In this document: one piece after another, positions 47,726-52,521 of the stretch
Position numbering within the stretch: position 1 is the stretch's first letter
Layout of the letters: every line of letters starts with the position of its first letter
Origin: Armatimonadota bacterium
GTDB taxonomy: Bacteria; Armatimonadota; DTGP01; JAKQQT01
Length of the DNA stretch: 64,000 nt
Assembly: GCA_036504095.1 (NCBI GenBank)
Contig: DASXVS010000048.1
Coordinates: 62,001-126,000 of the forward strand
Direction: 5' to 3'
The notes under the pieces: model-generated
Databases searched by the model: none
Seen by the model: the letters and a program-made list of their open reading frames with translations, nothing else
What the model was told of the DNA's origin: nothing
Position numbers and translations under genes: made by a program

Positions 47726-48811
47726 ATGCGAAATTCATCGGAAAAGATCGCCCCACAAGCGGTCATCATCCGCGATTTCCACGATCTCAGCGGGCGAACG
47801 CGTCTCCGCTGCACCTGGGCGATGGAGCGCGCGCTTCTCGAGATCGCCGTCGCCAGCCACGCTCACGAGGGTCACGGCGCCTTTCAGGGCCGCAAATACC
47901 CAAACACGACCGAGGATCACGTGGCGCAGGCCTTGGGCCTGGATGCCCGCGCGGAGCGGCAGCAGCGCCAGACGTGGATCGATGACGTCCGAGGATACGC
48001 CGAGGCCGCCATCGCCGGCAAAGCGCCCGGTTTCGCGGTTGACAAGGACGGCAACCCCCTCTTCGGAATCGGGATTTTCCGTTGGCTGGAGGTCGAGCCC
48101 CGTGACGTTCTCATCGGCCTCGCCCTCGGCGGCCTGCGCGACAACCCCACTTGGCGCCGCAAGGCGCAGGAAATCTACAACATCGAGATCGGCTACGGCG
48201 AAGCGCACCCGGTGAACATCCCCGCGATGGAAGCGGTGGGATTGGACGGCTACTCGCTATCCCAGGAGGCTCATGAGAAGGATCTGCAGGACCTTCGCGC
48301 AAAGGGAGTCATCCTGCCGGATAGCACGGAGCAGGGCGGCGATGTCCAGAGCATGTACGTGCGCTACCAGACCGGGCCCGGTGCATCCGATGATGCCGCC
48401 GTTCTGGCCGCTGGATTGCTGTACGGCGTCGGCGCCGCGGTCGGCTCCTACCTGGCCGATGCCATCGACACGCTGGAAAAGTACACGCCTACGCACGCGG
48501 ACCAAGACGACGCGATCGCGGAAATGATCCGGGAGCGCATGCCCGATCTGGTGACCGACGCCCAAGTGGTCCACCTCACTTTCCTCGCCTCCACCCCGCC
48601 GGATATGCTGGACACCCTTCCCGACAGCACCATGCGCCACTTCCTGCAGGAGGACCCGGGCGTGGATCAGTCGATACTGGAGAGCCACTTCCTCTACCTG
48701 ACCGGCCGCCCCTGGCTGCCGATGCACATGGGCCACTATCCGCTGATGAACAACGAAGAACTGTACCGCTACGTGGAAGACCGGGTGGGGCAAAACAAGA
48801 CGCCGAAGTAG
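47726..48811 (+). CDS. Conserved hypothetical protein, 361 residues
   Basis: A soluble protein with no family recognised. Notable stretches are GRTRLRCTWAMERALLEIAV near the N-terminus, HEGHGAFQGRKYPNTTEDH, an Ala/Gly-rich hydrophobic segment (DDAAVLAAGLLYGVGAAVG) about residues 215-235 that may be a buried helix, and a C-terminal FLYLTGRPWLPMHMGHYPLM. AAAGGG lies about ten bases before the ATG. It sits between repeat arrays and upstream of ahbAB. No function is proposed. Confidence 0.55.
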   Translation: MRNSSEKIAPQAVIIRDFHDLSGRTRLRCTWAMERALLEIAVASHAHEGHGAFQGRKYPNTTEDHVAQALGLDARAERQQRQTWIDDVRGYAEAAIAGKAPGFAVDKDGNPLFGIGIFRWLEVEPRDVLIGLALGGLRDNPTWRRKAQEIYNIEIGYGEAHPVNIPAMEAVGLDGYSLSQEAHEKDLQDLRAKGVILPDSTEQGGDVQSMYVRYQTGPGASDDAAVLAAGLLYGVGAAVGSYLADAIDTLEKYTPTHADQDDAIAEMIRERMPDLVTDAQVVHLTFLASTPPDMLDTLPDSTMRHFLQEDPGVDQSILESHFLYLTGRPWLPMHMGHYPLMNNEELYRYVEDRVGQNKTPK

Positions 48812-48921: not shown

Positions 48922-49992
48922 ATGAGCACGTCTGAAGAACCGCAAATTGTCGCTGATACCGTTGTCCCCCTGGACGACTGTGATAAGTCGCTGTTGAACG
49001 CCCTGCAGTGGGAGTTCCCACTCGCCGAGCGGCCTTTCCAGGCCATAGGCGCGGCCGTAGGGCTGCCGGAAGAAGAGGTGCTGGCGCGGATCGAGCGCTT
49101 GCGCCGCGACCACGTGATCCGCCAGATCTCCGCCATCTTCGACAGCCGGCGCTTGGGCTACAAGTCTTCGCTGGTGGCAATGGCGTTTCCGAAGGACCTT
49201 GAGGAGCGCGCTGTTCAGATCGTGAATGCGCATCCAGGCGTTTCGCACAACTACCAGCGCAACCACGCGTTCAACATGTGGTTCACGCTCACCATCCACC
49301 CCAGCATGGACCTCGAAACCGAGATGAACCGCCTGGGCGATGCGGCGGGCGCAACATCCAGCCGCCTTCTTCCGACAATCAAGCTTTACAAGATCAACGT
49401 GAAGCTGGATATGAGCGGTGATGCCAGCGCAACGGATAAAGAGGAAACCGCCTACGTGAAGCCGACGGGCGAATTGAAGCCCATCACCACCGAAGACATC
49501 TTCGCCATCCGCGAACTCCAATTGGATATGCCGACCGTCGTGGAGCCGTTCGCGCCGATGGCGGAACGCCTCGGAGTGACCGTGCCTGCGCTTCTGGAGC
49601 GCGCCCAAACATTCCTCAACAACGGCCGCATGCGCCGGTTCGCAGCGGTGCTGCACCATCAGTCGGCGGGATTCACCCATAACGCGATGAGCGTATGGAA
49701 GGTGCCGGACGAAAGCGACATCGAGCGCTGTGGGCGAATCATCGCCGGGTTCCGGTCCGTCAGCCACGCCTACCGCCGCCCAACCTACCCGGACTGGCCT
49801 TACGCGCTGTTCGGCATGATCCACGGCCGGAGTTACGAGGATTGCCACGCGGTGGCGGACGCCATCAAGGCGGAGACGGGATTGGCTGAGTACGACCTGC
49901 TGTTCAGCACGCGGGAATGGAAGAAGATACGAGTGCAGTATTTCGTCGAATCCGATTTGACGCTGGACCAGATGCTGCAGACCGCAGCCTGA
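48922..49992 (+). CDS. Fused siroheme decarboxylase AhbA-AhbB
   Basis: A 356-residue protein made of two Lrp/AsnC-like halves. The N-terminal half starts with a winged helix (CDKSLLNALQWEFPLAERPF, VGLPEEEVLARIERLRRDHV) and carries GVSHNYQRNHAFNMWFTL. The C-terminal half repeats the layout and carries SVSHAYRRPTYPDWPYALFG. Both match AhbA/AhbB, which usually form a heterodimer that removes two carboxyl groups from siroheme to give didecarbosiroheme, in the siroheme-dependent haem pathway or in haem d1 synthesis (NirD/L/G/H). Here both are on one chain. AhbC and AhbD are not nearby. A DNA-binding role is less likely. Confidence 0.85.
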   Translation: MSTSEEPQIVADTVVPLDDCDKSLLNALQWEFPLAERPFQAIGAAVGLPEEEVLARIERLRRDHVIRQISAIFDSRRLGYKSSLVAMAFPKDLEERAVQIVNAHPGVSHNYQRNHAFNMWFTLTIHPSMDLETEMNRLGDAAGATSSRLLPTIKLYKINVKLDMSGDASATDKEETAYVKPTGELKPITTEDIFAIRELQLDMPTVVEPFAPMAERLGVTVPALLERAQTFLNNGRMRRFAAVLHHQSAGFTHNAMSVWKVPDESDIERCGRIIAGFRSVSHAYRRPTYPDWPYALFGMIHGRSYEDCHAVADAIKAETGLAEYDLLFSTREWKKIRVQYFVESDLTLDQMLQTAA

Positions 49993-51465: not shown

Positions 51466-52521
51466 TCATGCGTCCCTTTCCGGGACGTTCGGCAGACCCG
51501 TTCCGTCCGTCCGATGCCTCATCGTGCCCGCATGGACCGCAATGGCCTCGGCCAGGCTGTACACAGGAGCGCGCACCGCCGCCGTCAGCGATGGCCAGTC
51601 GACCTTCTCGATCACACCCATAGCCACGCAGAACCCGTGTGGACCGATGAACCCGAGGCTTCGCCCCGCCCAGAACGCGCAGTCGAACGTCACTGCGGAG
51701 CGAACCCCGAATTCCGCCGCCACCTTGTCCAGCGAATGTCGCGGCGGTCCCAATGTCCAGAATGCCACCGAAGCGGCTCCGCGTTCCGCGTGGAGAACCG
51801 GGCAGCCAAGCAAAGGCGACGCGATCCGATGGTCGGTGCTCGTGAGTGGGGTTCCGAAGCCCAGGCGTGTGCCGCGCAGGAGTTTGTCCGTAAGCGGAAC
51901 CTGGTGCCGCCGGGCGTCGGCGAAATACCTCGCCAGCTTCGACGCGCGGCGAGCGGCCCGGAGACCGGGCGGTTTCGGCCGCACGCCGGAGGCTACCTCG
52001 GTGCGCACCACCGGCGCTCCGATCCCGGACAGCCATCGTTCCAGTTCATCGCGTCGCTGGATCGCCAGAACCGCACCCGGACGCAGCGCGTCCACCAGGA
52101 AGCGACTCAGCCCATGGCCCGAAGGCGTGTTCACGAACGACGGCGTGTCCACCAGCACCAATTCCGCGCCCAGTTCGATCGCTCTCTCCGCAAGCCGCAA
52201 GGCCCCCGTAACGACTTCCACCATCGACGGAAACGGCGTCGTGGCGCCCACATACCACTGCGCGCGAATCCTCCACTCACTGACTGGTTTGTCCGGTGCC
52301 GCCTCGCAAAGGTCCATCATGCCCGGCGGCCCGACCTCGGACTGGCCCACGTCCAGGTCCAGCACCATGACCTGCCGGCCCGTGTCAGCCTGTTGCGCCG
52401 CCAACGAGGCGATCCGCGACGACTTGCCGGTGTCGGAGGCGCCGATGGCGAGGATCACGCCGTCCGCGGCGACGGCCTCTTCGATTGTCGATGGAACTGG
52501 AACAATCATCGGGATGACCAC
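51466..52521 (-). CDS. Clp1/Grc3-type polynucleotide 5'-kinase-like P-loop protein
   Basis: A 351-residue P-loop NTPase. Walker A is GASDTGKSS (27-35). The following VMVLDLDVGQSEVGPPGMMD (51-70) is the DxDxGQ motif of the Clp1/Grc3/NOL9 group, which phosphorylates RNA or DNA 5' ends. The lid region has several Arg residues. In eukaryotes these act in RNA processing; the role of bacterial members is mostly unknown. The neighbour on the same strand is a phosphatase. GTG 52521 is used as the longest start; ATG 52509 is as likely. Confidence 0.75.
   Translation of the reverse strand: MVIPMIVPVPSTIEEAVAADGVILAIGASDTGKSSRIASLAAQQADTGRQVMVLDLDVGQSEVGPPGMMDLCEAAPDKPVSEWRIRAQWYVGATTPFPSMVEVVTGALRLAERAIELGAELVLVDTPSFVNTPSGHGLSRFLVDALRPGAVLAIQRRDELERWLSGIGAPVVRTEVASGVRPKPPGLRAARRASKLARYFADARRHQVPLTDKLLRGTRLGFGTPLTSTDHRIASPLLGCPVLHAERGAASVAFWTLGPPRHSLDKVAAEFGVRSAVTFDCAFWAGRSLGFIGPHGFCVAMGVIEKVDWPSLTAAVRAPVYSLAEAIAVHAGTMRHRTDGTGLPNVPERDA

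Follow-up and report, generated by a model that had tools for sequence, protein, structure and literature searches.

The active site of siroheme decarboxylase has been discussed for the heterodimer of Desulfovibrio desulfuricans in terms of His115 and Arg119 of AhbA and His98, Tyr100, and Arg102 of AhbB; the enzyme in which Arg102 was replaced by Ala was inactive, the A subunit was proposed to bind the iron and a propionate of the siroheme lying between the subunits, and the B subunit was proposed to supply the acid/base function and the carboxylate stabilization for both decarboxylations, as set out in the mechanistic sections of PMC4145669. Most archaea with ahbA/ahbB genes carry them in fused form, according to the remarks on gene organization in PMC4145669 and PMC3004389, and the archaeal groups with fused and split forms are listed in PMC11237513. 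For the later steps of haem synthesis, deletions in Haloferax volcanii tied PitA/ChdC to aerobic and AhbD to anaerobic growth; this archaeon has ChdC without hemE, cgoX, and cpfC, and the source of the coproheme used by its ChdC is not settled in the relevant portion of PMC5746218. HemQ has already been named as a possible end of the siroheme route in the passages of PMC8587615 that touch on it, so the idea of such a route ending in HemQ is not new.

The gene described here lies at 48922..49992 on the + strand of the window, by which we mean the whole stretch of 64,000 nucleotides of an Armatimonadota genome that was analyzed, and consists of a single uninterrupted ORF of 356 amino acids from ATG to stop. 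Residues 21 to 164 (48982..49413, +) match the NCBIfam AhbA model NF040708 with 242 bits against a cut-off of 140 (E 1.6e-72), residues 196 to 340 (49507..49941, +) match the AhbB model NF040707 with 236.5 bits against a cut-off of 125 (E 7.7e-71), and residues 165 to 195 (49414..49506, +) form a linker that is unmatched between the two. Pfam recognizes two NirdL-like HTH and two AsnC_trans_reg2 domains in the protein, a NirDL-like HTH and an AsnC-type domain falling in the AhbA half, and the best solved relative, 4CH7/4CZC (presumably from Hydrogenobacter), is itself fused and aligns with residues 22 to 344 (E 1.1e-73). A chance match is excluded at E values of about 1e-70, and on the strength of these profile and structure-database matches the gene product is assigned as a single-chain siroheme decarboxylase (AhbA-AhbB, NirD-L-like), a new representative of a known enzyme in an already known fusion. 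Structure prediction for the window protein with a Dehalococcoidia homologue, from a two-row alignment, gave a mean pLDDT of 39.4 and was set aside. No other AhbB match was found in the same genome besides the A half of the decarboxylase itself. Within the window, the ORF is not adjoined by other haem genes, which counts against the route proposed below. Just upstream lies a 361-amino-acid ORF (47726-48811, +) that has no Pfam match at an E value of 1e-5 or below, and the window also contains, at 51466-52521 (-), a CLP1-type P-loop domain protein (PF16575, 79 bits), a family best known from eukaryotic RNA processing.

Hand mapping from alignments with the D. desulfuricans subunits, with the 20-residue tag on 4czd_B allowed for, equates His109 of the A-half motif H109-N-Y111-Q-R113 (49246..49260, +) with His115 of AhbA, an iron ligand, and Arg113 with Arg119, and equates the B-half catalytic motif H282-A-Y284-R-R286 (49765..49779, +) with His98, Tyr100, and Arg102 of AhbB. 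By alignment, the A motif has a second histidine, His115 of the window protein (49264..49266, +), and the B half also carries H301. When 15 of the 22 canonical fused proteins collected by then were aligned with 19 proteins of the divergent family described below, the equivalent of H282/Y284/R286 was conserved in all 34, and the second A-half histidine was conserved in 14 of the 15 canonical and none of the 19 divergent proteins. The fusion and its residues, read directly from the ORF, bear out what the initial annotation had proposed, namely, AhbA and AhbB on one chain (both models score over their cut-offs in a single ORF) with a His/Tyr/Arg motif in each half (H109/Y111/R113 and H282/Y284/R286 are present, and neither half is degenerate). 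Its statement that the enzyme is usually the product of two genes was too strong, given the fused 4CH7/4CZC, the prevalence of fusion in archaea in the sources cited above, and the situation within the phylum: in a sample of 201 genomes (including the one under study) with a completeness of at least 90%, AhbB scored over the cut-off in 47, and by our reading of the profile-search output, both halves lay in the same-length ORF in 31 of these and did not in 16. A Dehalococcoidia MAG carries a 48% identical fused gene beside ORFs that, read by eye, resemble met8-hemA-hemC-cobA/hemD-hemB, an arrangement that speaks for the route proposed below.

The haem genes of the organism were found on other contigs of its assembly (4.68 Mb, 80 contigs, 98.6% complete). 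A Met8/SirC-type siroheme synthase (C40:95387-95986; 171.8 bits against a cut-off of 62.3) stands in a cluster with hemA, a cytochrome-c-assembly-type membrane protein, hemC, and further genes, including, downstream, a class-III aminotransferase that we read as hemL; ccmF lies just upstream of the Met8/SirC-hemA-hemC cluster, and its presence indicates that haem is used by the organism. The single HemQ/ChdC-family gene, on contig C43 (PF06778, 181 bits), encodes 232 amino acids whose solved matches are headed by coproheme decarboxylases (E 4e-26), with chlorite dismutases behind (2e-16); the protein is under both NCBIfam HemQ cut-offs (120 of 235 and 64 of 253 bits), and by hand reading it has Ser at the equivalent of Arg208 of Corynebacterium ChdC, a residue described as needed in the part of PMC9953210 concerned with it, and keeps the equivalents of Tyr135 and Trp143. 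Contig C41 carries two radical-SAM genes whose model matches lie 30 bases apart, one AhbC-like (AhbC, 435 bits against a cut-off of 650; NirJ1, 428.5; NirJ, 360) and one a member of TIGR04053 (447.9 bits; cut-off, 395). No match was obtained in this genome for hemE (TIGR01464) at an E value of 1e-30 or below, for ferrochelatase PF00762 in a search that was positive in 8 of 14 control genomes, or for the Cytochrom_D1 family PF02239 (NirS/NirF/NirN type) in a search that was positive in 2 of 14; AhbD over its cut-off was likewise absent, the best match (323.5 bits against 500) being the TIGR04053 protein. The suggestion in the initial annotation of a siroheme-derived haem agrees with this complement, in which siroheme synthase, an AhbC-like protein, and HemQ are present and hemE and PF00762 ferrochelatase were not found, and its suggestion of haem d1 use is disfavored by the missing NirS/NirF/NirN family. 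It had proposed looking for ahbC and ahbD, of which the former turned up as an AhbC-like gene under the cut-off and the latter did not turn up over its cut-off; the combination that it regarded as damaging, a full protoporphyrin pathway with one dead half, is not what the genome shows, since neither hemE at an E value of 1e-30 or below nor a PF00762 ferrochelatase was found and both motifs are intact.

We consider it probable, at roughly 85%, that siroheme is decarboxylated by fused AhbAB, converted to coproheme by the AhbC-like enzyme, and taken to haem b by HemQ/ChdC and/or the TIGR04053 enzyme; from the gene content we infer the substrates, the order of the steps, and the division of labor with respect to oxygen. 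The A and B halves would form a pseudo-dimer around one siroheme, with His109 and Arg113 of the A half holding the iron and one propionate, while His282, Tyr284, and Arg286 of the B half would decarboxylate the acetates at C12 and C18 to yield 12,18-didecarboxysiroheme. The radical-SAM enzyme encoded on C41 beside the TIGR04053 gene would then produce coproheme, from which haem b could be made oxidatively with peroxide by HemQ/ChdC or, probably at low oxygen, by the TIGR04053 enzyme. Haem b is taken to be the end product because no protein of the cytochrome d1 family was found in the genome, and fusion may offer the advantage of fixing the two halves at 1:1. The scores of the AhbC-like protein and of HemQ under their cut-offs, the near-equal NirJ1 score of the former, and the Ser at the Arg208 position of the latter weigh against the route.

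Models for AhbB, ferrochelatase, HemQ, AhbC, hemE, and AhbD were run on the 201-genome sample, with chosen E-value thresholds of 1e-60 for AhbC, 1e-75 for AhbD, and 1e-30 for hemE, at which weaker relatives are invisible. hemE was over the cut-off in 29 genomes, ferrochelatase was present in 30, 28 of them with hemE (the ferrochelatase of G134 is a fragmentary 24-bit match), and HemQ was present in 58; G188 has hemE and HemQ without ferrochelatase, and G016 has ferrochelatase with neither hemE nor HemQ. None of the 65 genomes with AhbAB of either kind had hemE, where 9.4 would be expected under independence (P 4e-6, kinship ignored), and relatedness among the genomes of the phylum confounds this distribution. 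Among the 29 genomes that have HemQ without hemE and ferrochelatase, 28 carry fused AhbAB (10 canonical, all of them fused, and 18 divergent), as would fit AhbAB-derived coproheme feeding ChdC. All 28 have a Met8-type siroheme synthase; the lone exception, G129, has neither type of AhbAB and no Met8 match. These presences, absences, and counts are observations on the sample, as is a result that counts against the proposed route: G002 (92% complete and 7% contaminated), the sole other genome of the same family in the sample, combines AhbAB with an AhbC-like gene and gave no match to HemQ or, at an E value of 1e-75 or below, to TIGR04545. An AhbC-like match was found in 36 of the 37 AhbB genomes without HemQ, the exception being G039, and the AhbD model at its threshold had no match in G002, G020, and G039, so that the last step is unaccounted for in these three. 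In 105 of the 201 genomes, none of AhbAB, hemE, ferrochelatase, and HemQ was found, possibly reflecting haem auxotrophy or the absence of haem. A zinc-ribbon-like N-terminal C-x-x-C extension occurs in five canonical fused proteins from HemQ genomes (L015, L023, L024, L025, and L026) and is missing from the window protein.

The divergent form is a two-half protein of about 385 amino acids, the halves of which match AhbB weakly; it occurs in 18 of the 201 genomes as 19 proteins (L042-L060; G052 has two copies). All 18 genomes have HemQ, and none has hemE, ferrochelatase, or canonical AhbAB. One protein that was scanned with Pfam has a NirDL-like HTH and AsnC_trans_reg2, two that were scanned with NCBIfam matched both subunit models under the cut-off, and one that was searched against solved structures matched 4CH7 (E 2.2e-14). 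In every one of the 19, the B half conserves its later His together with His-x-Tyr-x-Arg; the A half retains its first His and its Arg, with Tyr replaced by Val and the second His gone. In a quick tree, a 100% branch separates 7 of the 19 from 22 canonical proteins. We infer that the divergent family either decarboxylates siroheme or fills in closely for the decarboxylase.

The 28 genomes with fused AhbAB and HemQ differ in their radical-SAM complement. An AhbC-like match is present in 11 (6 canonical and 5 divergent: G000, G010, G024, G026, G040, G048, G062, G101, G105, G109, and G125), and in every one of them, an AhbD-model match lies 24 to 168 bases from the AhbC-like gene; in 9 genomes with both hemE and ferrochelatase, such matches also lie 75 to 77 bases from HemQ. 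Nine of these radical-SAM proteins, from nine genomes other than that of the window, were all over the TIGR04053 cut-off. TIGR04053 genes adjoining HemQ or AhbC-like genes are found at loci L003:1444-2547 and L128-L137. As coproheme is the chemistry that these neighbors have in common, it is a natural guess that TIGR04053 is an oxygen-independent coproheme decarboxylase, and it is put forward here as a candidate. The other 17 genomes (4 canonical, namely, G035, G097, G121, and G133, and 13 divergent, with L062-L081 as examples) have no AhbC-like match at an E value of 1e-60 or below and no AhbD/TIGR04053-type match at 1e-75 or below; two of them, G019 and G052, are single-contig assemblies, and a radical-SAM protein under these thresholds is possible. 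In the part of these genomes whose neighborhoods were inspected, no convincing candidate for an AhbC substitute was seen beside AhbAB, beside HemQ, or in the siroheme/hemA/hemC clusters, where the recurring families, so far as they were read, were AhbAB, HemQ, their antisense ORFs, Met8, hemA, a cytochrome-c-assembly-type protein, hemC, an aldo/keto reductase, a WD40-type protein, and general neighbors.

Three other explanations of the gene have to be set against the proposed route. The domain composition, with its AsnC-type and NirDL-like HTH domains, and a weak similarity to Lrp regulators recall an Lrp/AsnC-type transcription regulator that is no enzyme at all, and DNA binding by AhbA/B is not ruled out in the pertinent discussion in PMC4145669; yet both subunits are recognized at equivalog level while no regulator model is, the catalytic and iron-binding residues are conserved in both halves, and the mutually exclusive distribution with hemE also speaks against a regulator. 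We regard this explanation as scarcely credible. It is also very improbable that the decarboxylase works toward the haem d1 of a cytochrome cd1 nitrite reductase, with the AhbC-like gene being a NirJ. The NirJ1 and NirJ scores of that gene come near its AhbC score, and the nearest solved fused homologue is called NirD-like, but the genome is devoid of Cytochrom_D1 matches in a search capable of finding them in controls, and it has HemQ.

The remaining alternative accepts the decarboxylation of siroheme and leaves the haem end to the AhbD-like TIGR04053 enzyme only, HemQ being a chlorite dismutase or another peroxidase. The scores of HemQ under its NCBIfam cut-offs speak for it, as do the closeness of the TIGR04053 gene to the AhbC-like gene and its 323 bits to AhbD; on the other side, coproheme decarboxylases rank ahead of chlorite dismutases among the solved relatives of HemQ, and the 17 AhbAB-and-HemQ genomes just described have no AhbD/TIGR04053-type match at an E value of 1e-75 or below. 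We judge it improbable and retain a route in which HemQ/ChdC and, probably, TIGR04053 act on coproheme.

More tentatively, and with odds that we would put against it, the pattern may point to an oxygen-adapted siroheme route from which the radical-SAM enzymes have been lost, made up of the fused decarboxylase in its canonical or divergent form, a non-AhbC enzyme that takes off the acetates of rings A and B, and ChdC at the end; the organism of the window would then be an intermediate that kept the AhbC-like and TIGR04053 enzymes, the latter as a second oxygen-independent coproheme decarboxylase. The titles and opening lines of abstracts returned by a literature search contained nothing on the function of TIGR04053, on the phylum pattern, or on the AhbC-less genomes. 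The fused decarboxylase is ordinary by itself; its setting bears on the source of the coproheme of ChdC, a question that the pattern makes testable. Its interest lies in a ChdC that is apparently fed from siroheme in bacteria, in the divergent decarboxylase family, and in a possible AhbC-free route, and it would gain in weight if it is true that the 17 AhbC-less genomes use another enzyme.

Compared with described systems, the window protein has the same two halves as AhbA/AhbB of D. desulfuricans (4CZD/4UN1), which is encoded by two genes rather than one, and keeps the active residues that were mapped from it; with the NirD-like 4CH7/4CZC it shares the two-half single chain, in an organism that, in contrast, is without a cytochrome d1 family protein. 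The last enzyme family, HemQ, is common to the window organism and to the coproporphyrin-dependent route (hemE, cpfC, and HemQ), from which the organism differs in that hemE and ferrochelatase were not found. The archaeal route of Haloferax volcanii, as it is presented in the parts of PMC5746218 concerned with its gene set, combines AhbAB-, AhbC-, ChdC-, and AhbD-type proteins in the absence of hemE and cpfC. Proteins resembling these, the AhbC-like one under the AhbC cut-off and nearly as close to NirJ1, also occur together here, and hemE and ferrochelatase were not found; the window organism is bacterial, has a TIGR04053 protein under the AhbD cut-off where AhbD stands in Haloferax, and has a HemQ without the extra domain of PitA.
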